Position numbers and translations under genes: made by a program. Of a DNA stretch of 49,851 nucleotides, positions 5,045-49,325 are shown in pieces. The DNA is from a virus: the IMG/VR virus record IMGVR_UViG_3300009175_000001, positions 1 to 49,851 of that record, one strand, 5' to 3'. The notes below the pieces were generated by a model that saw only the letters and a list, made by a program, of their open reading frames with translations, made no database searches and had not been told where the DNA came from. Position 1 is the stretch's first letter, and each line of letters starts with the position of its first letter.

Positions 5045-5358
5045 CCGCAGACAAGGCGGTCCTACTCACGATGCAGGACAAGGAGGAGCTGATCATGGCG
5101 ATCGTCGGCCGCAAGGCTGAGATCGTGCGCGAGATGCGCCCCTTGCGCTTCGGCTACCACAGGTGCAAGCACGCCAACGCCATGATGCGCTCCCTCCCCT
5201 CACGCAGCCCCATGCGCGATGAGTACCGGGAGACCATCGTGGCTTGGACTGATGCCGCGGACCACTACGAGGAGCTGGTGGCCGAGCTGAAGATCCTCAC
5301 CAGCCTGCAGAGCGGGACGCAGACGGTCCTCAACTCCGAGAAGGCTGCGGCCCGATGA
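5026..5358 (+). CDS. Hypothetical helical protein, 110 residues
   Basis: ATG at 5026 has GAAGGAG 5 bases upstream, and the gene overlaps the end of the HNH-like gene by 19 bases. The product is mostly helical and charged (LTMQDKEELIMAIVGRKAEIVREMRP; DHYEELVAELKIL), with a Met/Arg/Ser-rich middle. I see no Cys cluster, membrane segment or enzyme motif. Position in the DNA-processing operon is the only clue. I do not recognise the family. Confidence 0.75.
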   Translation: MQLDGLTADKAVLLTMQDKEELIMAIVGRKAEIVREMRPLRFGYHRCKHANAMMRSLPSRSPMRDEYRETIVAWTDAADHYEELVAELKILTSLQSGTQTVLNSEKAAAR

Positions 5359-20886: not shown

Positions 20887-21723
20887 CTATACTCCGCTTT
20901 GGGCAATCTGGTTGCCCTGGTTTCCGAGACCGAATGAGGCCTCGTTGGTCTTCAGTAGGTTCTCGCGGTTGGCGAGAGCGCTGGAGAGCTGACTCTGGAT
21001 TCGAGTCGTGAGTGGCTGGTTGTAGACCGCTGCGTTCTGCTCCTGGCTCGTGAGGTCGCGCCCCATCGTCCAGGCGAAGGCCCCTTGGGCGGTGAGCACG
21101 TTCTGCAGGTTCTGCTCGACCTCCTTCGGGTCCATGTGCGCGTCGAACATCATCCGGCGCTCCAGCTCTGTGGCGGAGCGACCGAGGTTCTTCTGGTAGG
21201 CAGCGTCTTGCGACTGACGCTCTGCCATGTAGTCGGGAAGCTGCAAGCCCGAAGCGTTGTAGCTCGGATTCTGCGCCTGGAACTGAGCCGAGCTGGCGAT
21301 CATCTCGTTGTAGCGGCTGGGGTTAGCCCCGCTGGTCACGACCTTGCGCATGAAGCTGGCGCTGACGGGCTGCCCCGGGAACATCACCCGCCAGGTTTCG
21401 AGGAACGTCGAGGCGTCCTGCTTGTACCGCTCGGTGCTCGTGTATCGCTTGTCGTTCTTGGCGACGTACTCAGCGAACAGAGTCGAGTTCATCTTCTGCT
21501 TGACGGCCTGGTTGATCAGCTTCATGTTCGGCTTGAGACCGAGGTGGATGCGATACCAGGCCATGTAGGCCTTCTTCGTGTTGGCGCTGGCGCTGCTGGA
21601 GCCGCCGGAGCTGCCGCCGGAAGAACCTCCCGAGCTGCCGCCCGAGGAGCCGCCGGAGCTGCCTCCGGAGGAACCACCACTGTCGCCGCCCCCTCCGGGG
21701 TTGAACGGTGGGATGATCGCCAT
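20887..21723 (-). CDS. Virion-associated protein with Gly-Ser linker and repeated W-FPG-type motif
   Basis: The 278-residue protein begins MAIIPPFNPGGGG, continues with a flexible GGSS linker (residues 15-45), then two similar segments. Residues 51-94 contain AYMAWYRIHLGLKP... and residues 107-142 contain FLETWRVMFPGQPV... A third relative of these segments lies near the N terminus of the giant protein encoded just upstream. The C-terminal part is helical and Gln/Asn-rich and ends in a Gly-Asn-Gln stretch. It overlaps the giant gene by one base. I infer a structural or ejected protein that partners the giant protein. Confidence 0.55.
   Translation of the reverse strand: MAIIPPFNPGGGGDSGGSSGGSSGGSSGGSSGGSSGGSSGGSSSASANTKKAYMAWYRIHLGLKPNMKLINQAVKQKMNSTLFAEYVAKNDKRYTSTERYKQDASTFLETWRVMFPGQPVSASFMRKVVTSGANPSRYNEMIASSAQFQAQNPSYNASGLQLPDYMAERQSQDAAYQKNLGRSATELERRMMFDAHMDPKEVEQNLQNVLTAQGAFAWTMGRDLTSQEQNAAVYNQPLTTRIQSQLSSALANRENLLKTNEASFGLGNQGNQIAQSGV
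21590..21690 (-). repeat. 12-bp tandem repeats coding a GGSS linker
   Basis: About eight imperfect copies of a 12-bp unit encode Gly-Gly-Ser-Ser in the N-terminal linker of the virion-associated protein. Third positions vary between copies (GGC/GGA, TCC/AGC), so the repeat is old enough to have drifted or is kept for its protein product. Confidence 0.8.
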
Positions 21724-27700: not shown

Positions 27701-30700
27701 CCGTGGGAGCGAAGAAGTCCTCCGCCTGTGCGGCGAGATCCTGGGTGGCCGCGTTCACGTCTCCGACTTCCTGCGCGGGAAGCGGGCGCACGCCACGAAA
27801 GAGTGGAGTCCATCCCTTGTCGATGAGCGCCCCGACCGCCTCGCGGGCGTCGCCCGAGTGGGCGGACACGTCGAGCATCTGGGCCTTGCCCCTGACTGCG
27901 AACCCCTTGGCTTCCTTCTCCACCTTGCGAGCCGTCACCGCACCCAGCCGGTTCAGCGTGTCGTTGAGGCTGGAGAGGCTCTTGGTCAGGTCGTTGGTCT
28001 TGACGTCGAACTGCGCTACCGCCTTGCCGATGACAGCCTTCAGCGGCTCCGAGGCGAGGGTGTCCTTGAGGACGTTCGCGGTGATGTAGTCAGAGACGAC
28101 CGCTTCGGCCATATTCACGTCGAAGGCCTTGGAGAGATCCCCGAGGGCGTCCGGGTTGTACGAGCGGTTTAGGCCGCTGGCCTCTTCCTTCGTCCAGCGC
28201 GTGTGACGCGCCCTGGCGAGCTTGGCGTTCCAGGCGTTGTAGTACTCCCACTGGTTGAGGAAGTGCTTGTCCTCCGCCTGGGACTCGGTGATCATCCCGC
28301 GCTTGATGGCGTCGCTGACGGTGATGTCGGCGTAGTCGAGTGCGTTCTTGGCGCTCTGGGAACCGGGGAACTTTGCCCCATTGACGATCACCGTGGAGCC
28401 GTCGGCGAACTCGACCGCGTCGTACCCCGCCTTCTTGGCGTTGGCGATGGCCTCGAACTTCGAGTAGTTCTCCGGGGCGCCGAGTGGCGCGTCCTTGAGG
28501 ACGGCGCTCTTGTTGCCGTAGACCTTGCGGAACTCTGACGTGCCCTCCTTGAGGACCTTGGCGTCGGAGTGCATGCGCCGCGAGCCCTCGCCCGCGCCCT
28601 TGCGCAGGGCGGTGTACTCCCCGACCTTGCCGGTCTCCTGGAAGTAGGCGGTGGGATGCAGCTCGGCGACTCGGGAGGCGTGGCGCGTGGAGGGCACACG
28701 CCGCGTCTCGCTGATGAACTTGGATCCCGACCTTGTCGGCACCTTCTTGTTCGAGAAGCGGATGGTGGTGACGCTGCCGTCATCTGCCTCCGCCCAGACC
28801 TTGCGGCCCTTGCGGTGGATGGTGTAGCGCTTTCCCGCGGTGTCCTCGATCTTGCTGCCGTCGTGGAGAGAGTCGATGTACTGCATCGTCAGCGGATGAT
28901 CGCTCGTCGCTGCGGGCCTGGGGGTGCGGCTGGCGGATGTCTTGGTGGGGATCGGCTTTCCCGCCTCGTCGACGGCCGCTGTCGTCTCGCTGTCGACGAT
29001 CGACTTGTCCCTCGACCAGCGGTAGTTGGGACCCTCGACGTGCGTGATCTTGTCGGTGTAGCGGGCCTCATCGGCGGTCATGTAGATGACCTTGTCCCAC
29101 TTCTCGTGGGTGAGCTTGATGAGGCGTTCGTTGGGGATGCCGCCCTCGATGTCCGCAGCGCGAAGGCGGACGTGGTGCTTGATGATGCCCTCTTCGATCT
29201 CTCTGGCGATCTTGCCGATCTGCTGCGCTGCGTCCTCGTCCTCGACGTCGATGGAGAGGATGCGACTGAGCTGGGCGTCGATCGCCTTCTCCGGCATACC
29301 GGCGGCACGCATCTCGCTCTCAACGTACTCCGGAACCGCGTTCGGGGCCTTCATGCCGGGGTCGGTCATCTTCATGAAGAAGCGATCCCAGTAGCCGGGA
29401 ACCTCTCCCGTCTTGATTCCGCGGTCGATGGCGGTGATCGCCCGGTAGCGGAAGTAGTCTGCCGCGTCGGGGAGGATGTCGTGACCGATGAGTTCCTTGT
29501 TCTCAGAGAGCAAGACCTTGACCTCTTCCGGGGTCTTAGCGTCGGCGAGGAGCTTGATCAGCTTGCGGTCCATGTACTTGTAGAGTTGCCACACCTTGTT
29601 CTTGCTGTCGGCCTTGGCGAGCATCGAGGCGACCGACTCCATGGCGACGTGGTTCTTGCGCAGGGCCTCAGCCGCCTTCAGGAGGTCGGCGTCCTCACCG
29701 GCTGCCGCGACGGCCGAGGCGTAGGCCGCGGCGTGAGTAGCGTCGGCGCCCGTGGCGAGTCTCGTCAGCGCTGCCACCTTGGCGGCTGCAGCGAGTGCGC
29801 CGATGGCGGCGTCGGAGCCCACGTCGATGCCACAGTTGACGGCTATCGTGAAGGCGTCGGCGAAGAGCTTGTCCTTGCCGCCCGGGTCGCCCCCGAGGAT
29901 GTCGCCCACGAAGACCTCTCCCGAGGAGCGGAAGTTGTAGGTGGGCTCCAGGTACTGCTTGTTGCCAAGCTGGGCGAAGAGCTGGTCGTAGGTCGGGTTG
30001 GCGGGATCCCCGCCGATCGGGCCGGTGAGAGCCTTGCCGCCCCTGAGGGCGTTGAGCGCGGTGAGCGTGACCCCCGTGGTGTAGAGGTGCTGGCTGTCGT
30101 TGAGCAGGCGCATGCGCAGCTGCTGGCGCTCGTCAAGCGGACGCACCGAGACGAGGTCGTTGCCGAGTGCGGCCATGCGGGCCTGGATGGTCGAGGGGTC
30201 GGCTCCGAACCAGCGAACCTGCGCGGCTACGGTCCCCGAGGCGTAGACCTGGGACACCGGGCCGATGGGGCTGAGCTGCGTGTAGAGCGCTACCGCCCCA
30301 GCGGGGCTCAGGTGAGCGTCGAATGAGGTCTTGATGTCGCTGCCGAATCCTCCCCAGTCGCCGTGCAGCGGCTTGGAGAGGGTCTCGCCCACATGCTTGC
30401 CCTCGACGAAGATCGTGCTCAGGTAGATCTCTCCGGTGTCGTGGGTCCACTGGTACGCCTCGTTGAGTCCGTGACCGGCGCCCTTGACACCAGCCCATGC
30501 GGCTGACTTGACCGGAGCGCTGGTGGCGACCTTCTTCATCAACGGGGTCATGCCCATCATGTTGGCGGGGTTCGGCGTGTTGATGAAGATGTCCCACGCC
30601 TCTTTGCCCCCCGGCACCTTGAGAAGCGTGCTCCGGGCCGCATCGTTGACGGTCCCACCCGCGTGGGCGATGCCCCAGAACGCTGCCTTCGTCCAGTGGC

Positions 30701-32264
30701 CGACGTCGTCGATGTGCAGGTCCTTGACGCCCTCGCCCGTGATCTTCACGGCGGAGCCAAGGACGTGGGCGATCATCTGCTTGCTGTCGGCGCTGTCGTA
30801 CTTCGCGACCAGGTCGGCGACATTCTTCGGCAGGAAGAGGTGGTTCTCGGGTGAGAGGTCGGAGAACTCTTTGGCGACCTGCATCGGGCTCATGTTGGGG
30901 TTGGCGCCCGCAAGGTACATGCGGAACATGAGGTCACCTTTGCCGACGTCGGCGCCCGGTTTGCTGCCCAGGGCGGCAAGGATGGCACGCATGTCCTCGC
31001 GCTTGGCGGGGTCGCTGATCGTGGCAATGTCCCCGGAGGCGAGGGCGGCGATCTTGGCCTCGTCGGTGAGGCCCGCGCTCACGTACCCGCGAGTGGCGAG
31101 GTAGTCGAGGGCTGCGGTCGACTTGGCGCTTCCGGGAGTGGCGAGCTGGGCGATGACCAGCGCCCGGCCGTCCTGGGAGATCTCAAGCGCCTTCTGGCTG
31201 GCTGGTGTCCACTGCCAGGCGTTCTCGTAGCCCTTCTGGTTGACCTTCGGGGCACCGAGCCCCTTGATGGAGTTCGGGGTGGCGGTCTGCTCGCCCGCCT
31301 TTCCGAGAGGCTTGAGCCCCTCCGGCATGACGCCCTGAAGATAGAGGTTGAGGCGCGAGTTCGTGGTCGCCGCGTCGACGAACGCCTGCTTGGTCTCGCC
31401 GCGCTCCATCTGGCCCATCTGATGGATGGTGGAGCGGGAGTTGATCTCGGAGATCTGGTTCTCGTAGTACCGCTGGGCGGCAGCGAGGTTCCCAGGGCTG
31501 CGCTTGACCATCGCCTGCGCCGTCTTGAGGGCGCGGTCGGCGTCGCGCTGCGCGGTCGCCCGGAACTCCTGGGCGTTGACAGGCATCTGGCCGGTCTGGG
31601 TCTCCAGGAAGTGCTGTGCCTCGGGACTGTAGTCTCCCCACTTGTGGCGCTTCGCCAGTTCGTTGACCCAGTCGATGCCGAGCGCCTTGTGCTCGATGAC
31701 ACGGGAGGGGTCGTCGTTGTACCGCGCCCGGAGGTCTCCCGGGTTGCGTGACGTCAGCTCGCGCTGATCGGCTCCCTGGGTGTTCCCGAGGGCCGCGGCC
31801 TGCTGGCCCTGGTGGCCCTTGACCCGACCCGAACCCTGAGAGTGAGCTTGAAGGTTACCGGCGTATGGCTGGGGCTGCCCCCAGAGACCCTCTAAAGGGT
31901 CTCGGGGCTGACTCTCCGGGGCAGTATCGAGGCCTGCGGACTTGAGGATCCACTTGGTGACGCTCTCGTCGGTGTAGTCTGCTCCGGGCTTTACGCCCGC
32001 GAGCACGGCGGGGTGCATGATCGTCGCGTACTCGTCGACCGTTCCCTCGCTGATGCCAGCGTGGTTGTCTACGAAGTCGCGCGTCGTCTTCGGCGTTGGG
32101 ACTGACCCCGGGAACGACTGGCTCCAGGCGGTCAGGAAGTTGGCGGTGCGGATCTCGCTGGGCGCCCTGTTGTCGACAAAGGTTACACCGTACCCCTTCT
32201 TCTTCTTCTTCTTGATCGGGGTGACGGTACCTTGGCTGGTATCGGTACCGACTGGGATTGGCAT
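21723..32264 (-). CDS. Giant 3,513-residue virion protein, probably ejected or internal
   Basis: One uninterrupted frame takes up 21% of the genome. ATG 32264 overlaps the upstream stop as TAATG. The N terminus has a lysine run (residues 18-23) and the FLTAWSQSFPG motif shared with the 278-residue neighbour. Most of the protein is helical and Ala-rich. Around 1485-1545, GWTPLFRGVRPLP and GGGGAVYTTVAGEG recall ADP-ribosyltransferase motifs, weakly. Near 2480, TRLYRTLVLSKLSTMLRIV, and near 2800, SRNFVMFLPAYRQFASYWG, look like segments found in other giant phage proteins. No RNA polymerase or lysozyme motifs were found. Its place between portal and scaffold genes implies a capsid-interior protein, possibly delivered into the host. 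Confidence 0.8.
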   Translation of the reverse strand: MPIPVGTDTSQGTVTPIKKKKKKGYGVTFVDNRAPSEIRTANFLTAWSQSFPGSVPTPKTTRDFVDNHAGISEGTVDEYATIMHPAVLAGVKPGADYTDESVTKWILKSAGLDTAPESQPRDPLEGLWGQPQPYAGNLQAHSQGSGRVKGHQGQQAAALGNTQGADQRELTSRNPGDLRARYNDDPSRVIEHKALGIDWVNELAKRHKWGDYSPEAQHFLETQTGQMPVNAQEFRATAQRDADRALKTAQAMVKRSPGNLAAAQRYYENQISEINSRSTIHQMGQMERGETKQAFVDAATTNSRLNLYLQGVMPEGLKPLGKAGEQTATPNSIKGLGAPKVNQKGYENAWQWTPASQKALEISQDGRALVIAQLATPGSAKSTAALDYLATRGYVSAGLTDEAKIAALASGDIATISDPAKREDMRAILAALGSKPGADVGKGDLMFRMYLAGANPNMSPMQVAKEFSDLSPENHLFLPKNVADLVAKYDSADSKQMIAHVLGSAVKITGEGVKDLHIDDVGHWTKAAFWGIAHAGGTVNDAARSTLLKVPGGKEAWDIFINTPNPANMMGMTPLMKKVATSAPVKSAAWAGVKGAGHGLNEAYQWTHDTGEIYLSTIFVEGKHVGETLSKPLHGDWGGFGSDIKTSFDAHLSPAGAVALYTQLSPIGPVSQVYASGTVAAQVRWFGADPSTIQARMAALGNDLVSVRPLDERQQLRMRLLNDSQHLYTTGVTLTALNALRGGKALTGPIGGDPANPTYDQLFAQLGNKQYLEPTYNFRSSGEVFVGDILGGDPGGKDKLFADAFTIAVNCGIDVGSDAAIGALAAAAKVAALTRLATGADATHAAAYASAVAAAGEDADLLKAAEALRKNHVAMESVASMLAKADSKNKVWQLYKYMDRKLIKLLADAKTPEEVKVLLSENKELIGHDILPDAADYFRYRAITAIDRGIKTGEVPGYWDRFFMKMTDPGMKAPNAVPEYVESEMRAAGMPEKAIDAQLSRILSIDVEDEDAAQQIGKIAREIEEGIIKHHVRLRAADIEGGIPNERLIKLTHEKWDKVIYMTADEARYTDKITHVEGPNYRWSRDKSIVDSETTAAVDEAGKPIPTKTSASRTPRPAATSDHPLTMQYIDSLHDGSKIEDTAGKRYTIHRKGRKVWAEADDGSVTTIRFSNKKVPTRSGSKFISETRRVPSTRHASRVAELHPTAYFQETGKVGEYTALRKGAGEGSRRMHSDAKVLKEGTSEFRKVYGNKSAVLKDAPLGAPENYSKFEAIANAKKAGYDAVEFADGSTVIVNGAKFPGSQSAKNALDYADITVSDAIKRGMITESQAEDKHFLNQWEYYNAWNAKLARARHTRWTKEEASGLNRSYNPDALGDLSKAFDVNMAEAVVSDYITANVLKDTLASEPLKAVIGKAVAQFDVKTNDLTKSLSSLNDTLNRLGAVTARKVEKEAKGFAVRGKAQMLDVSAHSGDAREAVGALIDKGWTPLFRGVRPLPAQEVGDVNAATQDLAAQAEDFFAPTGFKNDSIGGGGAVYTTVAGEGDETGDIAAAAAKVYGGDRGAGVIMISPDARGMAYEDLMQIMYGEPGGSITVVVGNERQVHRTGQIPDLIRKMNNLVEVVPDSRGGATLRAIAKPLADTKMTAEELAANVRARRDLEPLLDAVDKMLARRAENPVEVVTDSQAALRRGLRGEAGLEPTIPVLERSPEYGVFAEEKRVAHGLAGKQTVELPDGTTVEMDAKDAISYELQQRVPADQTWDEYYQTPHGHTPTTGRATPGRGELTSTMPGEKPKVIQKAIKPKGPKGGNLRRQSKKTYQELAEGYTYEVRRKNKKVQSFYNDLVDEMWNRGTKGNVAKDSASADTRTKVDAENLVMSELEKDPTRTVYVRRWVDAKNGKHVKVSWDKPIKGKDVESMTAAELSAALQPEMGVKSGAIDAYMSRVERELQAGMHPSQQGDILAEKVAVGEGTLSPGFNDAGEMVGKARPDVVVNLENTKTIDQLEKEQETILKAMQEQGATRSEALKQWSESDLPAIKDRRIALENAYREGDPRVRLPRRGTKGWAEEWVSTQLDPILQAKRKDAATLISQDAATELTQLVRQHLELLPHAGERDAVRVAQSQYLLRRWGFVGAQSEKDVLQKQNLMLHELGYVRDDLSIKQAKIAELSAQITPDARTAVDPAEAERIGQALYDQINMSQDPAEFLASKGFDYTDVSPAATRLPIDDPAGAAYARSLRIRVQGERDYESIMALRGEVPPAESARQATYRMVVNRDTLRYTRETDLALDSQKADMVGKRIAATERDIRASQAQAARDLDNLLSSTADEYKKDVVSLFQAALSKTVGRQTSGRDELLSFLTDNPKLHAAAEKRFNELTDRIALVLGPDSVAPEVERQRVMEELRVEMHEANDQLKQMHEHPEQFMRSAPQWLHQQSFWYSPQIHAGTLAKFHMGATTRGWEIVQQTRLGGYLPSIDDATRLYRTLVLSKLSTMLRIVIGDEMLRCLPEGVNPLRNHVPGFLPERMGLPLQYKKEAQAAMKISPDLHTEISTMFDLARGADHVALKPGDDHYSEAINWALGHISRDRSTKVWLEAYDEAIGAGETSADAITAATNTLTAAGHKPAAEGGFQEFLKDGRIYENLPDEVLGALNLDLPTSEQLIQQWAEGIESFNTKIINAGATDALRTGKLPKKINKDLLPMVRYRLHDNFRQGRLKNPLDRLWGVVDGFSDRLKQECFLTEYSRQRAALDAISREKVAAGGEAIPLERAQRLSTERALAYTDRIMFSTEKYVGEDISRNFVMFLPAYRQFASYWGKLALKHPLAMASVMYNLNTQIPEQVKVGPLTIRPKSAIFLTGGGSFGQGGALGIINDWGPGAAPLITVPAQYFNERYNLGLEKLPGLQFARGGNVWNAVVDRMVYAITGKSLPRPLGRPDDVWNALIVRKMKSLAIAHSADLANGTLKYSDLAGMARGEVRKDAFIEGVFKFVIPASVTWNSDQTVGGVQQILTNYETLMTTDVGRAEDLILQGKVGDSRYEGSTETQRLASLVLQYRSLPDSQRTAFIDQNPDIIPWAIGTTNPSDPDVYSALRAQYTSVTDTPENIATGWRTGAMRGQASAQQQMDNNLFTAREGQFTSYLSSTKWATEHGKDAVKKGTPIYDYYRYLFENSEGPWANGGGLKLADGRTLKFSAGSAGQALNEPDIKTAGLLEYWLGPQGMQAAFREYPTVIAERQAMKLDALKNVESIASMSTVAMSKDHWAALGIKYDDSVRQTALKLTENWMNFYDVIGKKGYKPMTTEWKALRAKTIAENNAALRANDKTKILAMGPVAKLKFLTQPQKVDWEVMAPTSSRVPVGTENAGDNRVLGGSVKITRGFSAVTGVKQGTYMSNKQAGTTLVKAFLANANGKNTKSGEYWTNVAGQNLTGQALVYYKETVRAEMWKIMLQAAGQVRDYLRTVDNSTMKSQGTSTGSKIGKYALKWMTAAQKAVRTYSPEFGQEWDALSKNSNLTNDLIDWSNS

Positions 32265-32647
32265 TATGCCCCCGCTGTCAGATCATGGAAGCCGGTGCCG
32301 GTGTGAGCGGCGCGAAAGGCCTTCTCGTACTCCATCTGCGCTACCTTGAGCATGGTGCGCGTCGCGGGTCCAGCGTTGGGAACGCTCGCCCGCTTCTGCC
32401 AGATGATCAGCTCGGCCTTGGCCTGAGACTCGGCGTCGTGCAGGGCGTAGCCGGGCTGCATGTCCGGTGCGGGACCGGCCTGGGTCTGGGCCGCTGGCGC
32501 GGCGGGACCGCCGCCGGTCGGGCGTCCGGGGCCAACGTTGGGGATCTGCGGACCATGAGTGCCACCCTGCATGTGGGTGGCCTTCATGAAGTCGTCTACC
32601 TTGCCGACATCGCCGTACTGCGGCTGGGCGAGATTAGGCTGGGGCAA
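32264..32647 (-). CDS. Hypothetical portal-adjacent protein, 127 residues
   Basis: TTG 32647 has a perfect AGGAGG site 6 bases upstream, inside the end of the portal gene. The product has a Pro/Gly/Ala/Gln-rich disordered middle (about 35-65) and a helical C-terminal half (ALHDAESQAKAELIIWQKRA; TRTMLKVAQMEYEKAFRA). It overlaps portal and giant genes at either end, so it is tightly coupled to both and likely a small head protein. No family is recognised. Confidence 0.65.
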   Translation of the reverse strand: MPQPNLAQPQYGDVGKVDDFMKATHMQGGTHGPQIPNVGPGRPTGGGPAAPAAQTQAGPAPDMQPGYALHDAESQAKAELIIWQKRASVPNAGPATRTMLKVAQMEYEKAFRAAHTGTGFHDLTAGA

Positions 32648-34718
32648 CGGGGGCCTCCTGGGCGGCTGCTTCCTCCGGCGGTACGTCTGGTCCGCCCGTA
32701 CACTCGACAGCGTTGGCGCTGGCGGGCGGGACGCCGATGTTCGGCGTGATGCGCTGGTGCAGGTCGGGCACGCCCGACTTCACCGCGTTGAAGACCGTCT
32801 GCTTGTCGAGGCCGTTCTCGAAGTACATCTCGATGGTGTCGCCCTCGTCGATGGTGCCGTCGGCGAGACCGCCGACCAGGGCGATCCAGACGCGGCCCTT
32901 GAGGTTGGGGATCGAGCCGATGAACTGCACCAGCATGTCGAGCAGGTCGCCGCCACCGCCGACCATCTCGGGCGGGGTGTTCTGGGCGTCCGAGGGAACG
33001 CTCCCGTCGGGGGAACCCATGGCGGTCGGGGCTGACGTAGCCGCCTGTGCGTCCTTCATGGTCACGCCCGGGGGAAGCGGAGGAGGCGGAGCCTGGCCCT
33101 GCCTGCCCTTTCCGGTCTCGTAGTTGGTGAGGCTCGGCTCGTTCATGTCGGGCTGGGCGCCCATGGGGCTCTGCTGCATCTGTTGCATCTGCATCGAGAG
33201 GCGCACGTTGCGCATCATCTCGTCCTCGACCAGCTGCATCTCCTTCTCACGATCGGTGACGAAGATGCAGTTGTCCATCGCGGTCGGGGTGCTGACGAAG
33301 CCGTTCTGCTTGGCCTGGATGAGCATCACAAACTTGGTCTGCTCGTCGAGGTAGTCGGCGGCTTCGTTGGAGAGCTCGAACTCGGTCCATCCCTGGAGCT
33401 TGTCGGGTTCGTAGGTGAAGGTGTATCCGGTGTCGATCTTCTTGGCGGAGTCGCGGGCACCGCGGAGCACACAGTGCTTGCCCTCGACGCCGTCGAAGTG
33501 GTCCATCATCTTGATGGCGTAGACGCAGAGCTGCTCCCACGCCGGGAGGATGTACTGGTTGCGGAGCTGGATGCCGTTCATGAACGGACCCTTCGCTTCG
33601 CTGAGCGCCTTGCCCGAGTTCATGGGACCCGAGTAGTCGCCAAGGATGGAGGGGGTGCCGGAGATCTCGCTCATCATGTCGCGCAGCTCTTGCTTGCTCT
33701 TCCACCAGTCGTAGTCGAGCTTGGGCGGCGTTGCATAAGATACACCGCCGTGCTGACCGACGGTGATCACGGCACCCGCGTCTTCGGGGATCTCGCGCGG
33801 CGCGTTGATGGGGTCATTGATGACCATCGGGGAGTTCATGGTCTTCTTGACCATCTCCTTCTCGATCATCACGCGCTCGGTAAGTTCGTTCTGCGGACCG
33901 ATGAGACCCATGACCACTGAGTCTCCCCACATGCTGCCGGGAATGGAGATGTTGCGGATGACCGCGATCGGGTTGACCTTCTCACGAGCGAGGCCGTGCT
34001 CGGTGAGCGGCTGGATGACGACCTGTCCGCCGACCGCGTAGGTGCCGCGCTGGGTCTCTCCCCAGTAGTCCACGATCTCTACCTGGTCGACGCCGTACTC
34101 CTCGAAGCCGTGACCGGGGTACATCGCGTCCGCTTGCAGGCCCGGGACCATGTCGACGAAGAAGGCGTCCTTCACCTTGCCCTTGTCGATGTTCTTGGGG
34201 ACTGCATAAAAGTTCCGTGGGGACCGTATATTGATGCGCGGGAGCCAGTCCTCCTGGTCCCACTCGACAACGCCGATGGCGGTGCCCTGGACGCAGAGAT
34301 ACCAGCCCTGGTCACCGAATCGCATCTTCACGTTGGAGTAGGCGAGGACGCCGCGGACCACCTGCTCCAGGTAGTCGGCGATGGCGTAGCCGTCCTCGTC
34401 GATCGACGGCGCGAGGCCGCGGGTGGACGGGGGGACGGCGAGGTAGGCGCGCTGGGATTCTACCTTGGGGCGGATCACGTTGATGGGGAAGGTTTCCTTC
34501 TCCTCTTCGTTCTCCTTGCCCTTGATGAACTTCATCCAGCGCTTGGCCCAGCTTGACTGGTTGCGGCGAACGGTCCAGCGGCCCCAGTAGGCGTCTTCCC
34601 ACTCGTCGTAGTCGAGCATGCGGGAGCGGCCGTCAGCGACGAGGTTGTCCTTGAGCTGATACAGGTCCTGGATCACAGAGTCTATCGGCAACCACCCCTT
34701 TACGCGCGTCGAGGGCAT
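32634..34718 (-). CDS. Portal protein
   Basis: The protein (694 residues from ATG 34718; a TTG nine codons earlier is an alternative) follows the terminase and has portal features. These are a charged N-terminal stem region (RWTVRRNQSSWAKRWMKFIKG), a long beta/alpha body including INIRSPRNFYAVPKNID and NPIAVIRNISIPGSMWGDSV, and the helical stretch ELTERVMIEKEMVKKTMNSP. The conserved MSEISGTPSILGDYSGPMNSGKAL segment is common in podovirus portals of about 700 residues. The C-terminal third is Pro/Gln/Met-rich. It forms the ring through which DNA enters the capsid and to which the adaptor binds. Confidence 0.88.
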   Translation of the reverse strand: MPSTRVKGWLPIDSVIQDLYQLKDNLVADGRSRMLDYDEWEDAYWGRWTVRRNQSSWAKRWMKFIKGKENEEEKETFPINVIRPKVESQRAYLAVPPSTRGLAPSIDEDGYAIADYLEQVVRGVLAYSNVKMRFGDQGWYLCVQGTAIGVVEWDQEDWLPRINIRSPRNFYAVPKNIDKGKVKDAFFVDMVPGLQADAMYPGHGFEEYGVDQVEIVDYWGETQRGTYAVGGQVVIQPLTEHGLAREKVNPIAVIRNISIPGSMWGDSVVMGLIGPQNELTERVMIEKEMVKKTMNSPMVINDPINAPREIPEDAGAVITVGQHGGVSYATPPKLDYDWWKSKQELRDMMSEISGTPSILGDYSGPMNSGKALSEAKGPFMNGIQLRNQYILPAWEQLCVYAIKMMDHFDGVEGKHCVLRGARDSAKKIDTGYTFTYEPDKLQGWTEFELSNEAADYLDEQTKFVMLIQAKQNGFVSTPTAMDNCIFVTDREKEMQLVEDEMMRNVRLSMQMQQMQQSPMGAQPDMNEPSLTNYETGKGRQGQAPPPPLPPGVTMKDAQAATSAPTAMGSPDGSVPSDAQNTPPEMVGGGGDLLDMLVQFIGSIPNLKGRVWIALVGGLADGTIDEGDTIEMYFENGLDKQTVFNAVKSGVPDLHQRITPNIGVPPASANAVECTGGPDVPPEEAAAQEAPVAPA

Positions 34719-34811
34719 TGTCCCCCGTTTACTGCCAAAAAGCAAACTCGTCTTTTTGCCGCCGCCGCGGCCACCTTTCCAGGCCCTTGCTTTTGTCGTT
34801 TGGGGAGGTGA

Positions 34812-35013: not shown

Positions 35014-36687
35014 CTAGATGCGAGTAAGGTTGTCCTCGTGACCCTCCACAACATCTCCCCAGTACGGATTCGTGCGAAAGCGTCCGCTGTGGCCCGCAAG
35101 GTAGTAGCCCTCGTATTTGGTCTGGGCGTCCCTGGCGGCGAGTTCAGCGAACCAGAGAGCCATGCAGAAGTCGTAGACACCCTTGGGGAACATGACCAGC
35201 TGGTTGATGAACTCCCCGGCCTTCGCTCGATCGTGTGCGGTCTTGTACGGGATGCTGATGTTGCTGTTGGCGAACATGGCAGCCATGGACTTGACGCCCA
35301 TTGTCGGGTCCCACTTGTTGCCACTCGTCTGGTGCGGTTCAAGCCGAATCCCCTGGAGCAGGGCGTCCTTCACACGCTGATGCTGCAGCAGCCATTTCTG
35401 CACGGCATTGACCTCGATCTTGCCCACGTCGTAGTGATAGAGGTCATAGAAGCCGGGGAGGCCGCGACCTTCGTCTCCATCCAGCAGGACGCTGATGATG
35501 TCTTCGACTGGCATCTGCTTGCGGAACAGATCGACGATGTAGCGCTTCGGTGGATCAACACTGTTGTCGGTCCCCAGGACGATGTAGGACGGGTACGTCG
35601 ACTGTTTGCTTGTACTCCCACTTGCGGGGTCGAAGCCGAGGCTGATAAACCACTCATCGTCGTAATCCCCGAAGGAACGGGAACGGTCCAGGCATCCGTC
35701 GTAGGTGACCCCGTCGTATTCGCCACCGCGTATGTAGACCTCCGGGAACGCCATCTCGGCCTCATCGAAGGCGATGTTCCGGAATCGCTTGTTGAAGCTC
35801 AGGATGCCGAGACTCTTGATCTCCCGCTTCAGCTCTTTGACTGGCATGTGCCGCGGCCACAGGGCACTGGTCTGCGTCGGGTCGCTCGTATGTGTCTCGT
35901 GGTTCCAGAAACAGTCGAAGTAAAGCTTCTTGTACGTGCTGTCCCGCTCCAGCGTGAAGTAGAGATCCTGCGGGTGGAAGCGGGTACCGGCTACCACGAT
36001 GCGCTCGTAGCTCACGTCCGTCGGCCAGCTGATGCCTTCGGGGATCTCTGGCTTACCAGTCTCTTCGTCTCGGGGGAAGATGAGACCAGGGCTAGTCTGG
36101 ACTTCTTCGCGGAACCAGCGGAGCTGCTCGCGGCGGCGCTCAGGAGTGCCCCCGGTGTCGTCGGTGACCACGTCGTCGACGATGACCAGATCGGACCTGT
36201 GGCCGAGGACCTTGCCCCCGGCGCCGAAGAACTCCAGCGTCAAGTGCTCGTCCATGATCTGGCGTTTGGCGATGTTGAAGAAGGACGTCGACCAGACATT
36301 GTCCCGGTTGTAGAACGGGCCGAAGTCCCGGATCAACTTGGTGTTGGACTGAAGGATGTTCATGATCCCGTTGGCGTAAGCCTTGACGTCATCCTTGGTC
36401 TTCATGATGAGGATGATACGGATGTTGGGGTTGATGCACATCTCCCAGATCGGCAGCCACTTCGATAGCAAGGTGGACTTCCCGTGCCTTGCGGGCAGCA
36501 AGATCAGAGAGCGCATCTCCTCGTGCGCCTGCGTGAGGAACTGACGCTGGTAGGGTTCGACCTCAAGACCGCCGTAGTAGGCGATGAAGACATCCGGGCA
36601 GTGGGTCATGACGTACTTGAAGGTCGCCTCGTCGGTGACGTAGTCGAGGGGCTTCAGTGGATCAGGGTGTACCTTCAACATCGGCAT
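35014..36687 (-). CDS. terL: Terminase large subunit
   Basis: The 557-residue protein has an N-terminal ATPase: EPYQRQFL (Q-like motif), Walker A LPARHGKST (residues 64-72) and Walker B DLVIVDDVV (166-174, with Asp-Asp in place of Asp-Glu). VVAGTRFHPQDLY is in the motif III region. The C-terminal RNase H-like nuclease starts with SLGFDPASGSTS (Asp 353) and includes DVGKIEVNAVQKWL. It pumps DNA into the capsid and cuts the concatemer. ATG 36687 has GGAG 6 bases upstream and overlaps the small-subunit gene by 26 bases. Confidence 0.93.
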   Translation of the reverse strand: MPMLKVHPDPLKPLDYVTDEATFKYVMTHCPDVFIAYYGGLEVEPYQRQFLTQAHEEMRSLILLPARHGKSTLLSKWLPIWEMCINPNIRIILIMKTKDDVKAYANGIMNILQSNTKLIRDFGPFYNRDNVWSTSFFNIAKRQIMDEHLTLEFFGAGGKVLGHRSDLVIVDDVVTDDTGGTPERRREQLRWFREEVQTSPGLIFPRDEETGKPEIPEGISWPTDVSYERIVVAGTRFHPQDLYFTLERDSTYKKLYFDCFWNHETHTSDPTQTSALWPRHMPVKELKREIKSLGILSFNKRFRNIAFDEAEMAFPEVYIRGGEYDGVTYDGCLDRSRSFGDYDDEWFISLGFDPASGSTSKQSTYPSYIVLGTDNSVDPPKRYIVDLFRKQMPVEDIISVLLDGDEGRGLPGFYDLYHYDVGKIEVNAVQKWLLQHQRVKDALLQGIRLEPHQTSGNKWDPTMGVKSMAAMFANSNISIPYKTAHDRAKAGEFINQLVMFPKGVYDFCMALWFAELAARDAQTKYEGYYLAGHSGRFRTNPYWGDVVEGHEDNLTRI

Positions 36688-39678: not shown

Positions 39679-40041
39679 ATGAACGCAATCGCCAACATCG
39701 ACAGCGAAGCTGTCGCCATCATCGTTGCTGAAGTCATCGCCAAGCTGAACGCCACCACGGCGCCGAAGGCGCCCAAGACGACCGCCAAGGCTGAGCCCAA
39801 GACGGCGCCGAAGGCGCCCAAGGTCCGCAGGGTCCGGGGACGCAGCAACCTCGCCTTCGGCGAGAAGAAGGTCTCCAGCCTCAAGGTCGGCGCCAAGTTC
39901 CGGATCCGCCCGGAGGGCGCCGACTACACCGCCAAGTCGGTGAAGACGGACAAGGCTCACGGCTTCGCCGTGGTCACCACCGACCATCCCAAGGCGCCGA
40001 GCATCAAGCTTCGCTTGGCACAGACCATCTACGTGGCCTGA
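39679..40041 (+). CDS. Lys/Ala/Pro-rich protein with C-terminal beta domain (paralog 1)
   Basis: The 120-residue product has three parts: an amphipathic helix (residues 8-24, SEAVAIIVAEVIAKLNA), a basic linker with repeated APK(A/T) units (27-52), and a beta domain (62-120, VSSLKVGAKFRIRPEGADYT through VVTTDHPKAPSIKL). The next gene encodes the same order of parts with clear similarity (IASIVAEVVAKL; TTVVGTDHPKVDKF), so the two arose by duplication. Basic linkers of this kind are typical of histone- or H1-like proteins. DNA binding is inferred. The start has GGAGGACACC upstream, overlapping a GGCGCC hairpin. Confidence 0.75.
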   Translation: MNAIANIDSEAVAIIVAEVIAKLNATTAPKAPKTTAKAEPKTAPKAPKVRRVRGRSNLAFGEKKVSSLKVGAKFRIRPEGADYTAKSVKTDKAHGFAVVTTDHPKAPSIKLRLAQTIYVA

Positions 40042-40062: not shown

Positions 40063-40099
40063 GGCCCTGCCCGGCTATCGCCGGGTGGGGCCTTTTTTT
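40063..40099 (+). terminator. Intrinsic terminator between the paralogs
   Basis: GGCCC-TG-CCCGGC (40063-40075) pairs with GCCGGG-TG-GGGCC (40080-40092), and seven T residues follow (40093-40099). It lies 22 bases after the stop of the gene at 39,679. A small GAGCC-TTC-GGCTC hairpin at the stop codon precedes it. Confidence 0.88.
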
Positions 40100-40157
40100 G
40101 TGCCTCCAGCCGGAGGAACCCGAGCAAGGCGCCGAAGGCGCCGGAATGGAGTGGACC

Positions 40158-40679
40158 ATGGCCAAGACGACGACAGTGCAGCAGGCGCTCATCGCCACCC
40201 TGGAAGCCGAAGGCTTCTGCGTGACGAAGCCCGCCGCGGCGCCGCAGCCGAAGGCTGCCGCCAAGAAGACGCAGACCAAGACCTCGGCGAAGCCGAGCAC
40301 CCGCAAGACCGCTCCGAAGGAGGACACCGTGTCGCAGACCGAGCTCATCGCCAGCATCGTCGCCGAAGTCGTCGCCAAGCTCCACACCGAGATCCAGCCG
40401 AAGGCTGCCACCAAGACCGTCGCCGCGCCGAAGGCGCCCAAGGGCCGCAAGGCGCCGCAGCCGAAGGCTGGCCGTCGCCACATCAAGGATGGCCGTCTCT
40501 TCGAGACGCCGGTCGCCAAGCTCGCCAAGGGCGACGTGTTCCAGCTCAGCGCCAAGGGCGCCCAGTACACGGTGACCGCGAAGCGGTCCGCCAAGGGCAC
40601 GACCGTGGTCGGCACGGACCACCCCAAGGTCGACAAGTTCACCTTCGGTGAGGGTCGCACGGTCCTCGTCGTCAGCTGA
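40158..40679 (+). CDS. Lys/Ala/Pro-rich protein with C-terminal beta domain (paralog 2)
   Basis: ATG 40158 is chosen because GGAGTGG lies upstream and the frame before it is Glu/Pro shadow sequence. The 173-residue protein has an extra N-terminal segment (TTTVQQALIATLEAEGFCVT), a histone-tail-like linker (AAKKTQTKTSAKPSTRKTAP), the helix SQTELIASIVAEVVAKLHTE, a second APKAPKGRKAPQPK linker and the beta domain (AKGDVFQLSAKGAQYTVTAK to the end). It is a longer duplicate of the preceding gene. It may bind phage DNA or a regulatory site in the noncoding region before the pair. Confidence 0.75.
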   Translation: MAKTTTVQQALIATLEAEGFCVTKPAAAPQPKAAAKKTQTKTSAKPSTRKTAPKEDTVSQTELIASIVAEVVAKLHTEIQPKAATKTVAAPKAPKGRKAPQPKAGRRHIKDGRLFETPVAKLAKGDVFQLSAKGAQYTVTAKRSAKGTTVVGTDHPKVDKFTFGEGRTVLVVS

Positions 40680-42027: not shown

Positions 42028-43551
42028 ATGCGCATCTTCGACGACCTGCCGACCACCTCGCAGCTCGAAGAGCTGGGCTTCGACTTCAACACGAAGTTCG
42101 GCATCGAGTTCGAGTTCTACTCCGACGAGACACGCTACGAAGTGGCGAGGCTCATCAGCAGCAACGCTCAGGTTGACTGCTGCGACGAGAGCTACAACCA
42201 CCAGACTCGTGAGCACTGGAAGATCGTCACGGACGGTTCGCTGTCGGAGGGTGATGGCGAGTACGACAGCGACGAGTACAACTGCGACGACTGCGACCAA
42301 GACGAGTCCTGCAATGAAGACTGCTCCAGCAACAACGACTGTCCCCGCTACGACTGCTCCAACTGCCGACGGAGTGAGGAATCCCGAAACGACGATGACG
42401 AGGGGTGCTTCGAGGAGCGGGACAACGACGAAGTCTGCGAGCAGTACGGCTACCCACTCTACGAGTGCGAGGACTGCAACGTCAGCCCACACTGTGACCA
42501 GAACTGCTCCGAGCACTGTTCTCGAGGTGGCTCTCGAGGTGGCTGCGGCAACTACGGCATGGAGCTTGTCAGCCCGCCGCTCCGCGGCTACCATGGGGTG
42601 CAGCAGGTCTGGAAGGTGCTCGACGCCCTCAACGACATCGGGGTGAGCGTGGGCCGCGACTGCGGCCTGCACATCCACCACGACGCCTCGGATATACGGC
42701 TGCCCAACTTCAAGAGGCTGGCCCAGCTGTACCTCAAGTACGAGCCCACCATCGACCTGCTGATGCCGCCGAGCCGACGCATCAACGAGAACTGCCACTG
42801 TAAGTCCCTGCGCTACCATCAGGGCGGACAGTCCAACTTCTCCATGCAGGAGACATGGGAACGCATCGAAGCGGCATCCTGCCTCGATGCCGTGTGGTGC
42901 GACAGGTACATCAAGCTCAACTTCACGTCCTACGCCCAGCATGGGACGATCGAGTTCCGCCACCACAGCGGGACGACGGACTTCGGCAAGACCCTGCACT
43001 GGCTCATCTTCACGCAGCGCATGGTCCAAGCCGCGATGCGGACCGACCAAGTCATCGAGATGAAGGAGACGAGCACCGAAGAGCCCATCGCCCTGGCCGA
43101 CATGGCACGAGTGCTGAGGCTCGACCCACCGCTGCGTGAATACTGGGACCTGCGTGCCAGGTGGTTCGCCGAGGCTGACGAGCGGCGCAGGATTGCCGAG
43201 GCGGAGCAGGCGGTGTTAGCCGCAGAGTACACGAGGCTCCGCGAAGCGAGGGAGCGGGCCGCACGCAGGGAGCGGGACATCTGCTACGACATCGACAACG
43301 CCATGCCCAGCCCGTTCCGGGTGTCACGCACTTCGATACTGCCGTCGTCGGTCGCACTGGCCTACGCAGTAGAGCAGCTGGAGCGTCGTCGCGCCGACTG
43401 GACAAGGGCGCAGGACCTGATAAGGGCGCAGCGCTGGCAGCAGTATGCCCGCGACTTCGTCTACGGAGCGACGCCGAGAGGAACCTCCTTCGACACCTCC
43501 CGGCTCGACGAGACGCAGCCCATAAGGCTGCATGATCTGAGGGTCGCATGA
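42028..43551 (+). CDS. Phage amidoligase (carboxylate-amine ligase, glutamine-synthetase-like) with Cys/Asp-rich insertion
   Basis: The 507-residue protein has the amidoligase motifs in order: FGIEFEF (residues 24-30), WKIVTDGS (64-71), MELVSPPLRG (178-187), CGLHIHHD (212-219), RYIKLNF (293-299) and GTIEFRHHSGT (306-316). These match the ATP- and metal-binding core of the family, which joins an amino group to a carboxylate. Between DGS and ELVSPPL is an insertion (about 83-175) with 15 Cys and many Asp, Glu and Asn. A coiled coil (about 375-440) and a basic C terminus follow. ATG 42028 has AGAGAGGACACC upstream; TTG 41977 with GGAGG is a real alternative. It is coupled to the next two genes. 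Confidence 0.85.
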   Translation: MRIFDDLPTTSQLEELGFDFNTKFGIEFEFYSDETRYEVARLISSNAQVDCCDESYNHQTREHWKIVTDGSLSEGDGEYDSDEYNCDDCDQDESCNEDCSSNNDCPRYDCSNCRRSEESRNDDDEGCFEERDNDEVCEQYGYPLYECEDCNVSPHCDQNCSEHCSRGGSRGGCGNYGMELVSPPLRGYHGVQQVWKVLDALNDIGVSVGRDCGLHIHHDASDIRLPNFKRLAQLYLKYEPTIDLLMPPSRRINENCHCKSLRYHQGGQSNFSMQETWERIEAASCLDAVWCDRYIKLNFTSYAQHGTIEFRHHSGTTDFGKTLHWLIFTQRMVQAAMRTDQVIEMKETSTEEPIALADMARVLRLDPPLREYWDLRARWFAEADERRRIAEAEQAVLAAEYTRLREARERAARRERDICYDIDNAMPSPFRVSRTSILPSSVALAYAVEQLERRRADWTRAQDLIRAQRWQQYARDFVYGATPRGTSFDTSRLDETQPIRLHDLRVA

Positions 43552-43802
43552 TCGAACTCACCACCAACACGGGCGAGAAGTTCCTCGCCGAAACCTGCGA
43601 GCAGCTGGTGGGGCTGATGTGGAAGGCTGCGTTCATCGAGGAGGCGGGGCCGGGTGAGTACATGAAGGCCGTCGCCAAACGCGTGAAGACGCAGACCAAC
43701 CGCACCATCCGCACCGACTCCGCAGATGCCTTCATCATCGGCCTGAACTCGGCCAGAATCGCCACCTACAACACCATCCCGAGCCAAGGAGGACACGCAT
43801 GA
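43548..43802 (+). CDS. 84-residue protein between amidoligase and cyclotransferase genes
   Basis: ATG 43548 overlaps the amidoligase stop as ATGA, and its own stop overlaps the next start the same way, so all three proteins are made together. The product starts MIELTTNTGEKFLAETCEQL and continues VGLMWKAAFIEEAGPGEYMK, AVAKRVKTQTNRTIRTDSAD and AFIIGLNSARIA. The pattern EYMxxVAxRV...IRTDxxxxFIxxL feels familiar from small proteins beside phage amidoligases, but I cannot verify this. It is a candidate partner or substrate carrier for the ligase. Confidence 0.75.
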   Translation: MIELTTNTGEKFLAETCEQLVGLMWKAAFIEEAGPGEYMKAVAKRVKTQTNRTIRTDSADAFIIGLNSARIATYNTIPSQGGHA

Positions 43803-44788
43803 GCAAGCGCAGCCGTTCCAAGAGCATCAGCCACCTCGAAGACAAGTGGTGGAAGAAGCAGGACCGCAAGGACAAGGTGCTGGCACGCAAGCTCAAGGAC
43901 CACCCCAAGTACTACGTGGCCTACGGCAGCAACCACAACGTCCTGCAGATGCAGCAGCGCTGCAAGACGGCGATGCCGGTCTGCACGGCTGACCTGCACG
44001 GCTACAAGCTCATCTTCAGCGGCGTGCTCACGATCGAAGCGTGCGAGGACAGCCACGTCCCCTGCTCGGTGTGGAAGGTTGGGGCCGAGGACATCATCGC
44101 CCTCGACCGCTACGAGGGCTACCCCACGATGTACGAGAAGTTCGACATCGACCTCACCCTGCCGGGTGGGAAGCTGGTCAAGGCCTTCACCTACTACCTC
44201 AACGAGCCCTACGAGCAGCAGCTTCCCTTCGGCGGCTACTACACCACGGTGGCCGAAGGCTACCAGGAGTGGGGGCTGGACTTCGACGTGCTCCTCACCA
44301 GCATGGCGATGGCTGAGGACGCGGAGTTCGAGTACGCCAGCAAGCCGGTGGTCTGCGTGGGCTGCGGCGAAGTGCTGCCCGCAGGGCAGATGACCTACAA
44401 GCGGCTCAAGGGCTGGCTCTGCCCAGAGTGCGACCGCATCTTCAACTACCCGTGGGTGGGCCGCGACTACTGGGGCACGAGTGCGAGCAACTGGAACGAC
44501 CCGCAGGCTCCGAGCTACTCGGACCGCGGCTACCCCTTCGGGCACAACGACACCAAGCCGTCCGAGAGCCGCAGCGAGTACTACTGGCCGGGATGGGGGT
44601 ACGACGACGGGACCGGCATGTACTTCGATCCAGCGGAGCTGGACTGGAGCGGCTCCGACAAGCGCAGCCTCTACGACGCATGGGATGCGCTGGATGAGGA
44701 CGCCGAGTTCGAGGAGGCCATGCAGCTGGGCGGCGACTACAAGCCCGACAGCGACAGCTACCTCGACGACTACCGCGCCACCGCCTGA
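43799..44788 (+). CDS. Gamma-glutamylcyclotransferase-like protein fused to a zinc ribbon and acidic tail
   Basis: The 329-residue protein has a basic N terminus (1-35), then a GGCT/AIG2-like domain. YYVAYGSNHNVLQMQQRC (38-55) holds the YGSN substrate loop, and VWKVGAEDIIALDRYEGYPT (91-110) contains the family LDxYEG with a likely catalytic Glu. Such enzymes cleave gamma-glutamyl amides to 5-oxoproline. A zinc ribbon follows (CVGCGE, Cys 186 and 189; LCPECD, Cys 208 and 211), then an aromatic/acidic low-complexity tail to residue 329. It is translated with the amidoligase, so it may reverse or trim amide bonds made by that enzyme. Confidence 0.75.
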   Translation: MSKRSRSKSISHLEDKWWKKQDRKDKVLARKLKDHPKYYVAYGSNHNVLQMQQRCKTAMPVCTADLHGYKLIFSGVLTIEACEDSHVPCSVWKVGAEDIIALDRYEGYPTMYEKFDIDLTLPGGKLVKAFTYYLNEPYEQQLPFGGYYTTVAEGYQEWGLDFDVLLTSMAMAEDAEFEYASKPVVCVGCGEVLPAGQMTYKRLKGWLCPECDRIFNYPWVGRDYWGTSASNWNDPQAPSYSDRGYPFGHNDTKPSESRSEYYWPGWGYDDGTGMYFDPAELDWSGSDKRSLYDAWDALDEDAEFEEAMQLGGDYKPDSDSYLDDYRATA

Positions 44789-44910
44789 TGGCCTACGTCT
44801 GCAAGAGTGTCGACGAGGACAACTGCTCGAACTGCCGCGGTCACAACCGCTGCGAGGACGAGATGAACGCGGGATACGGAACCTACGAAGCTGAGGAGGA
44901 CGACAGATGA
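44788..44910 (+). CDS. 40-residue Cys/acid-rich protein after the cyclotransferase
   Basis: ATG 44788 shares a base with the previous stop (TGATG). The product, MAYVCKSVDEDNCSNCRGHN followed by RCEDEMNAGYGTYEAEEDDR, has Cys at 5, 13, 16 and 22 and many Asp and Glu. CSNC followed by an acid-rich stretch also occurs in the amidoligase insertion. It is a zinc-knuckle-like miniprotein; a role as partner or substrate of the ligase is speculative. The stop overlaps the next gene as ATGA. Confidence 0.55.
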   Translation: MAYVCKSVDEDNCSNCRGHNRCEDEMNAGYGTYEAEEDDR

Positions 44911-45242
44911 CTGACGGACCGAAGGACTACATCAGGGTCGAGCCGCACTGGCCGGGGATGCTCAAGTTCATCTACGCCATGGCGCGGGAGCACTGGCCCT
45001 CCATGGACATCTACATGGTGGGCATCATGGGCGGCGGACAGACGATGATGTGGGCCGAAGTAGAACAGGATGGCGAAGCCCGGGTGTTCAGCTACGAGAA
45101 TGGGAGGTGGGAGGACCTGCGGGCCACCGAAGACGACGTGCTGAACCTGCATGAGAGCAGCTACGCCATCGCGGAGTACATGCCCGCGAAGTGGAAGGTC
45201 ACGGTCGCCAACGACAAGCCCATCTACGTGACCTTCCGATGA
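44907..45242 (+). CDS. Hypothetical protein, 111 residues
   Basis: Coupled to the previous gene by ATGA. The product begins MTDGPKDYIRVEPHWPGMLK and includes YMVGIMGGGQTMMWAEVEQD, then ARVFSYENGRWEDL and an end IAEYMPAKWKVTVANDKPIY. It looks like a small alpha/beta protein with conserved-looking Trp residues. No family is recognised. It continues the coupled operon that starts with the amidoligase. Confidence 0.7.
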   Translation: MTDGPKDYIRVEPHWPGMLKFIYAMAREHWPSMDIYMVGIMGGGQTMMWAEVEQDGEARVFSYENGRWEDLRATEDDVLNLHESSYAIAEYMPAKWKVTVANDKPIYVTFR

Positions 45243-45502
45243 GCGTCTACGAGAAGCTCGACAAGCTCGACAACGGGGACACCGTCGACTGGGACCTGAC
45301 CAACGGACTGCTGCGCAGCAGCAAGGAGATCCAAAAGGTCGACAGCGACCTCTACCAGATCTTCCACGGCATCGACGGCAGCATCACCTTCTTCAGCCGG
45401 GAGGGCATCTGTGAGGTGCTCGCTGGGCTGAGGGACGTGTGGGACGGCGACAAAGGAGGGTGGAACGAGGAGAGCGGGGACTATGGTCCCGAAGACGCTT
45501 GA
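45239..45502 (+). CDS. Hypothetical acidic protein, 87 residues
   Basis: ATG 45239 overlaps the previous stop as ATGA. The product starts MSVYEKLDKLDNGDTVDWDL, with IQKVDSDLYQIFHGIDGSIT and FFSREGICEVLAGLRDVWDG, and ends in an acidic EESGDYGPEDA tail. It has no Cys cluster or membrane helix. It is the last member of the coupled run that begins at the amidoligase. Function unknown. Confidence 0.7.
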   Translation: MSVYEKLDKLDNGDTVDWDLTNGLLRSSKEIQKVDSDLYQIFHGIDGSITFFSREGICEVLAGLRDVWDGDKGGWNEESGDYGPEDA

Positions 45503-48716: not shown

Positions 48717-49325
48717 ATGACGCTCTTCAAAACGCTCAACGGAACCCGTGGCTCCTTCGGCCACGGCGACTACACCGGCTACCTGCCAAAGGGCAAGCGC
48801 CCCGGCAAGTGGCTGCCGAAGGTCACGCCGGTGCTGTGCGAGTCCGGCTACCATGTCTGCCGCGACCTCTCCGAAGTCCTGACGCACGCCGGACCCGAAC
48901 TGTACGAGGTCGAGGTGCGCGGGACCTGCGTCGAGGGCAAAGACAAGGCTGCGTGGGAGCAGGCGCGGCTGGTGAAGCGAGTCCCCGAGTGGGACCAGCG
49001 CACCATGCGCCTCTGGGCCATCGACTGCGCCCGGCGGGTGATGTATATCTCGCCCGACCACGAACTGCTCGACGCGGTGCTCGACGTCTGCGTGGCCTAC
49101 GCCGAGTACGGCGAGGAGTGGGCCGCTGCTCGGGACGCTGCTTGGGACGCTGCTCGGGACGCTGCTTGGGCCGCGAAGGACGCTGCTTGGACCGCTGCTC
49201 GGGACGCTGCTTGGGACGCTGTTTGGACCGCTGCTCGGGCCGCTGAGACGCAGGAGCAGGTCAAGCTGCTGCAGCGGTATCTCGACGGCGAGCAGGGGCC
49301 GTTCGTGGAGACCGCCGATGCCTGA
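48717..49325 (+). CDS. DUF7666-like protein with Ala-Trp-Asp helical repeats
   Basis: ATG 48717 has GGAGGACCG upstream. The 202-residue protein starts with a domain (LFKTLNGTRGSFGHGDYTGY, LPGKW-like segment and VLCESGYHVCRDLSEVLTHA) found with Ala/Trp/Asp repeats in phage and actinobacterial proteins called DUF7666, as far as I remember. Residues about 136-178 are repeats of AAWDAARD, predicted as one long helix with Trp every 8 residues. The C terminus is QEQVKLLQRYLDGEQG. Function unknown. Confidence 0.65.
   Translation: MTLFKTLNGTRGSFGHGDYTGYLPKGKRPGKWLPKVTPVLCESGYHVCRDLSEVLTHAGPELYEVEVRGTCVEGKDKAAWEQARLVKRVPEWDQRTMRLWAIDCARRVMYISPDHELLDAVLDVCVAYAEYGEEWAAARDAAWDAARDAAWAAKDAAWTAARDAAWDAVWTAARAAETQEQVKLLQRYLDGEQGPFVETADA
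49123..49248 (+). repeat. Tandem repeats coding AAWD/AARD units
   Basis: Imperfect 12-bp units GCTGCTTGGGAC and GCTGCTCGGGAC alternate about ten times, with variants GCCGCGAAGGAC and GCTGTTTGGACC. The repeat could change length by slippage without breaking the frame. Confidence 0.85.

Follow-up and report, generated by a model that had tools for sequence, protein, structure and literature searches.

The window analysed here spans all 49,851 bp of a linear IMG/VR virus record, which may be incomplete. Its right arm carries a cassette on the + strand in which an amidoligase of 507 residues (P0001, 42028..43551), an 84-residue protein (P0002, 43548..43802) and a gamma-glutamyl cyclotransferase (GGCT) of 329 residues (P0003, 43799..44788) are encoded in that order. 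The amidoligase and GGCT pair is already known in phages. What appears to be new is the middle gene, which has no match in Pfam or PDB and is a conserved third partner of the ligase. Our best explanation, to which we give a probability of about one half, is that the cassette writes and erases a gamma-glutamyl-type amide, with the ligase as presumed writer and the cyclotransferase as presumed eraser, and that the 84-residue protein is the dedicated partner or target adaptor of the ligase. A third protein that accompanies the ligase across widely different phages and prophages, diverging along with it, supplies a concrete piece that was missing so far. Tests of the ligase can now include or omit this small protein, which could also serve as bait for the target.

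The record has a G+C content of 63.8% and is a tailed-phage genome, with genes on the - strand for the terminase large subunit (35014-36687), a head-tail adaptor-like protein (32634-34745) and the major head protein (18955-20136). It also encodes a DnaB helicase, RusA and an endolysin. A nucleotide search with the right arm of the record returned no match. As a preliminary description of this DNA had reported, the three genes are joined by 4-nt ATGA overlaps and a fourth ORF, encoding a Cys-rich miniprotein of 40 residues (44788..44910, +), is coupled to the GGCT gene by TGATG. The chain of overlaps runs on past the miniprotein into 44907-45242 and 45239-45502, and further 4-nt overlaps occur at 5355 and 6173. 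Overlaps of this kind are therefore ordinary for this genome. They mark the genes as an operon without setting the cassette apart; we gave them little weight and rejected them as a sign of a special unit.

Profile searches, which the preliminary description had proposed for both enzymes, matched each of them above the curated cut-off. The first gene product scores 119.3 bits against Amidoligase_2 (PF12224; cut-off 22, E 3.3e-34) and also matches phrog_2443 (E 8.8e-34). It keeps every column that is invariant in 30 aligned ligases (W64, D69, E179, P183, H215, H217, R293, N298, E309 and R311) as well as E27 and E29, so that the GS-like metal- and ATP-binding residues (ExE, E..SP, HxH, R, N and ExR) are all present, in agreement with the earlier reading that the amidoligase core motifs are complete. 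In an AlphaFold2 model, 265 core residues have a pLDDT of at least 90. All matches listed (the best 50) in a Foldseek search of this model against PDB are enzymes of the glutamine-synthetase superfamily, including gamma-glutamyl-methylamide synthetase and YbdK, with a best E of 3.4e-4 and low TM-scores of 0.16-0.33. Profile and model together identify the protein as a predicted Amidoligase_2 enzyme of glutamine-synthetase fold. Iyer et al. are credited with the founding analysis of this enzyme group in 2009.

The third gene product scores 42 bits against the GGCT/AIG2 family (PF06094; cut-off 22.8) and matches phrog_2520 with an E of 2e-32. A GGCT profile matches human GGCT at E 7.6e-18, and a phmmer alignment to 2pn7 places Glu106 of the phage protein (codon 44114..44116, +) opposite residue 98 of the human enzyme, its catalytic glutamate. 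The YGSN motif lies at residues 42-45. By these alignments the protein is a predicted gamma-glutamyl cyclotransferase with its catalytic Glu kept. Loss of catalytic residues, which the preliminary description had named as grounds against its own reading, is not seen in either enzyme. The cyclotransferase-like domain with YGSN and the zinc ribbon that it had noted are both present, the latter as a CxxC...CxxC ribbon C-terminal to the GGCT domain (residues 186-211; 44354..44431, +).

Pairs of this kind, which the preliminary description had called known, are annotated in several phages and discussed in papers. The amidoligase adjoins a GGCT gene in annotated Ca. Heliusvirales, Terrisporobacter, Bacillus and Geobacillus phages, and it lies at most 3 kb upstream on the same strand in 63/64 GGCT loci on viral contigs with enough upstream sequence. 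The two enzymes are listed together for C. clostridioforme prophages (PMC11318856) and for Arthrobacter phages (PMC5513430), and a podovirus set of amidoligase, GGCT and GATase has been proposed as a peptidoglycan modification cassette (PMC5498523). None of the papers found shows a substrate for a phage amidoligase and cyclotransferase pair. The cassettes of Ca. Heliusvirales and Terrisporobacter phages resemble that of the window: downstream of the amidoligase lies a GGCT that belongs to the same subfamily (38-49% identity). A zinc ribbon is also among their components, in some as a separate gene and at L117 fused to the GGCT. The order in Firmicute-type gut phages is ligase, GGCT and separate zinc ribbon, in contrast to ligase, small protein and GGCT in the branch of the window. 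Of the loci from the GGCT scan, 0/64 carry a member of the small family, and none of the small-protein loci from the ligase scan has a separate gene for the zinc ribbon.

The podovirus cassette of phiEco32, LUZ24, RIO-1 and PSA-HP1 also has amidoligase and GGCT in one operon, but adds a second amidoligase, an ATP-grasp enzyme and a GATase that the window lacks. It raises the possibility that our cassette alters the peptide stems of cell-wall precursors in the same style, as a peptidoglycan modification or superinfection exclusion system. This is a published hypothesis for podovirus cassettes of amidoligase, GGCT and GATase (PMC5498523; PMC11318856), and LUZ24 and RIO-1 do carry the enzymes together, yet the published idea is itself still a hypothesis. 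RimK (PF08443) and GATase_6 (PF13522) found no match in the record, which may be incomplete, so the ATP-grasp and GATase genes that mark the podovirus cassette beside amidoligase and GGCT were not found in it. Furthermore, the small protein was not found in the cassettes of LUZ24, RIO-1 or Vibrio 1.293.O; its absence from LUZ24 and RIO-1 places the window cassette in a different branch. We therefore regard a role in peptidoglycan modification as possible, though doubtful for this cassette.

The chief finding concerns the middle gene. The preliminary description had correctly called a small middle protein but passed over its rank as the conserved third partner, which is the strongest feature of the locus. 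The protein has no match in Pfam, PHROG or PDB, and used alone as a query in annotated phages it returned nothing significant. Its 25 aligned relatives likewise have no PDB match, only chance-level Pfam scores and only single weak PHROG matches. It is no random ORF, and it founds a family that is undescribed as judged by Pfam and PDB matches. An AlphaFold2 model gives a small bb-aaa-b fold (pLDDT 82.6, pTM 0.68), for which Foldseek found no relative among solved structures; the significant matches in BFVD are unnamed or uncharacterised phage proteins. Arg45 (codon 43680..43682, +) is the sole residue that is invariant in all 40 family sequences.

The 84-residue protein and its iterated profile were used as queries against every ORF from annotated phages and from the loci collected for both enzymes, and matched 61 of them. 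All 61 lie on the ligase strand, downstream of the ligase, and the middle gene of the window likewise matches the profile and sits on the same strand just downstream of its amidoligase. A gene-neighbourhood survey in phages, another check proposed at the outset, showed recurrent linkage of the ligase both to the small protein and to GGCT. Among 42 non-redundant phage ligase loci for which 2 kb or more of downstream sequence was available, the small protein follows the ligase within 0.9 kb in 30, and is never found upstream or antisense (0 loci). Because window-like ligases served as seeds for the survey, the 30/42 figure is not valid for Amidoligase_2 as a whole. The same 42 loci contain GGCT in 22 cases and a class II glutamine amidotransferase in 3. 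Of the 30 loci that have the small protein, 12 contain neither of the two, showing that a recognised eraser is not always present and that the small protein is tied to the ligase.

Reverse tests with small-protein queries, which are independent of the ligase search, gave the same picture. When a profile of the closest members was searched against 2.9 million viral contigs, every one of the 4 loci matched was a ligase cassette. A Porphyromonas-type member matched 10 annotated phage records; of these, 7 are Porphyromonas phages and 2 more are faecal records that the ligase search had also matched. In three whole genomes the small protein occurs once per genome, each time at the amidoligase locus. 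A scan of 398 whole genomes, all from one phylum, gave 8 small-family matches, 7 of which adjoin an amidoligase, in one of these cases a truncated one. The distance matrices of ligase, small protein and GGCT are correlated across 19 non-redundant triples (Mantel r 0.81-0.86, p 0.0002), a joint divergence that any block inherited together would be expected to show as well. Viral-contig searches with single enzymes found 1 locus for the ligase of the window and 0 for its GGCT, showing that alignments were needed as queries.

Two of the loci from whole genomes are unusual. The eighth and weakest match (L201, 6799-7098) is an orphan with no amidoligase within the 14 kb read. At L202 (5089-5740) a truncated amidoligase stands beside an intact small-family gene; the genome concerned has a second cassette as well.

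Arthrobacter phages Salgado and Ottawa have amidoligases related to that of the window (30-37% identity), and Ottawa encodes a small-family protein two genes downstream, but in both phages a class II glutamine amidotransferase takes the place of the GGCT. Class II glutamine amidotransferases also cleave gamma-glutamyl amides, so this replacement supports gamma-glutamyl removal as the common step. In a Porphyromonas gingivalis phage the amidoligase is overlapped by a small-family member, as in the window; unlike in the window, no GGCT is annotated beside it.

We propose that the amidoligase would activate a carboxylate at the expense of ATP and join it to an amine on the target; this carboxylate would most likely be the gamma-carboxyl of glutamate. 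The cyclotransferase would cyclise the gamma-glutamyl group to 5-oxoproline and free the amine. The 84-residue protein, whose homologues lie downstream of amidoligases, would most likely act as a small folded subunit: bound to either the target or the ligase, it would direct the ligase or switch it, although it could serve something other than targeting. Candidate targets include a peptidoglycan precursor, a protein, a polyamine or a nucleic-acid-bound amine. The idea that such enzymes make and break amide links, already put forward in the preliminary description, gains support from the profiles, the catalytic residues, the GS-like model and the recurrent neighbourhoods. It had also suggested that the cassette may modify a host or phage target; no specific target is supported.

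The size of the small protein and its fixed adjacency to the ligase recall PafA, a GS-fold ligase that conjugates Pup, a small protein encoded nearby. By this analogy, the 84-residue protein would be a modified substrate or tag that the ligase conjugates and the GGCT removes. In contrast to Pup, members of the small family are predicted to be folded, and they lack both a conserved C-terminal Gly-Gly-Glu/Gln and any conserved Lys, Glu or Asp that might serve as the linkage site. The eraser partner is GGCT instead of Dop, and GGCT acts on terminal gamma-glutamyl groups, not on protein tags. Given the folded model and the lack of a conserved tail or linkage residue, we rejected the Pup-like tag as a very unlikely identity.

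A protein of this size could also be a carrier in a small-molecule pathway. Butirosin biosynthesis uses a ligase and GGCT pair (BtrJ/BtrG) to add and remove a gamma-glutamyl protecting group, and the phage enzymes might treat a metabolite by the same logic. However, no biosynthetic genes were recognised near the cassette, the family has no conserved Ser for a phosphopantetheine arm, and Foldseek gave no significant match to a carrier protein. A carrier was rejected as the identity of the 84-residue protein on these last two grounds, and the pathway as a whole has only a slim chance of being correct.

In the reading that we prefer, the eraser may offer a weak hint to the target. The cyclotransferase of the window has a basic N-terminal tail in addition to its zinc ribbon, which together hint faintly towards a nucleic acid or nucleoprotein. 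The fusion of GGCT and zinc ribbon is shared by the closest relatives (L014, L094 and L019), and zinc ribbons recur on both the ligases and the GGCTs of the window clade. These same features, the basic tail and ribbon in the close clade and the recurrence of ribbons, would fit a cassette that puts an amino acid on an amine-bearing base of DNA or RNA, but no nucleotide-modification genes were recognised among the window genes scanned, and we consider base hypermodification the least probable of the alternatives. A broader and rather speculative proposal sees in the 84-residue family a specificity subunit not recognised before, which would turn phage amidoligases into targeted, reversible modifiers of a host or phage macromolecule, as a system of writer, adaptor and eraser. 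In the window clade they would perhaps be directed at nucleic acid or nucleoprotein through the basic tail and zinc ribbon of the eraser. At L117 (716-1375) we also observed a natural fusion, in which the GGCT is joined to the zinc ribbon that related gut phages encode as a gene of its own. As this Firmicute ribbon is fused to GGCT too, the zinc ribbon is a recurrent accessory.

Several features of the window cassette have few or no counterparts. Between the halves of the GS-like core, the ligase carries an insert of 107 residues (residues 72-178; 42241..42561, +) that is rich in Cys, Asp and Glu (15 Cys, 32 Asp/Glu) and is the longest at its position among 163 amidoligases (median 9 residues, 95th percentile 20). 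Residues 76-172 have a pLDDT below 50 and are thus disordered in the AlphaFold2 model. The insert is possibly a metal-binding module; in close relatives, a CxxC ribbon is found instead at the N-terminus of the ligase. A C-terminal extension of long helices (residues 367-478; 43126..43461, +), modelled as helices 367-425 and 440-478, is absent from most aligned close relatives and is largely private among them. The miniprotein has no match in Pfam or PHROGs. Nor does any fetched locus contain a relative, which makes it the least secure of the four genes, and its membership of the cassette is doubtful. The preliminary description had given weight to the Cys-rich insert and the miniprotein. Both exist, but they look private to this phage, and we rejected them as defining parts because no relative carries them; neither is needed for the writer and eraser reading.

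At other ligase loci (L006, L095, L097-L104, L107 and L108) a short gene lies upstream of the real amidoligase and in L006 (2872-3600) is itself annotated as amidoligase. What it shares is mainly the C-terminal region, and by eye the GS-like core is missing, so it is likely a mis-annotated paralogue of that region.

Elsewhere in the window, a single ORF of 3513 residues (21723-32264, -) without a PHROG match lies between the adaptor-like and head genes and probably encodes a giant virion or polyvalent protein. Upstream of the cassette, the neighbours at 39679-40041 and 40098-40679 (both +) found no Pfam match and resemble tandem paralogues, with a VAEVxAKL start, an Ala/Lys/Pro-rich linker and a TDHPK end. 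Finally, a gene at 48717-49325 (+) encodes a DUF7666-like protein (score under the cut-off) with repeats of the AAWDAARDAAW type.
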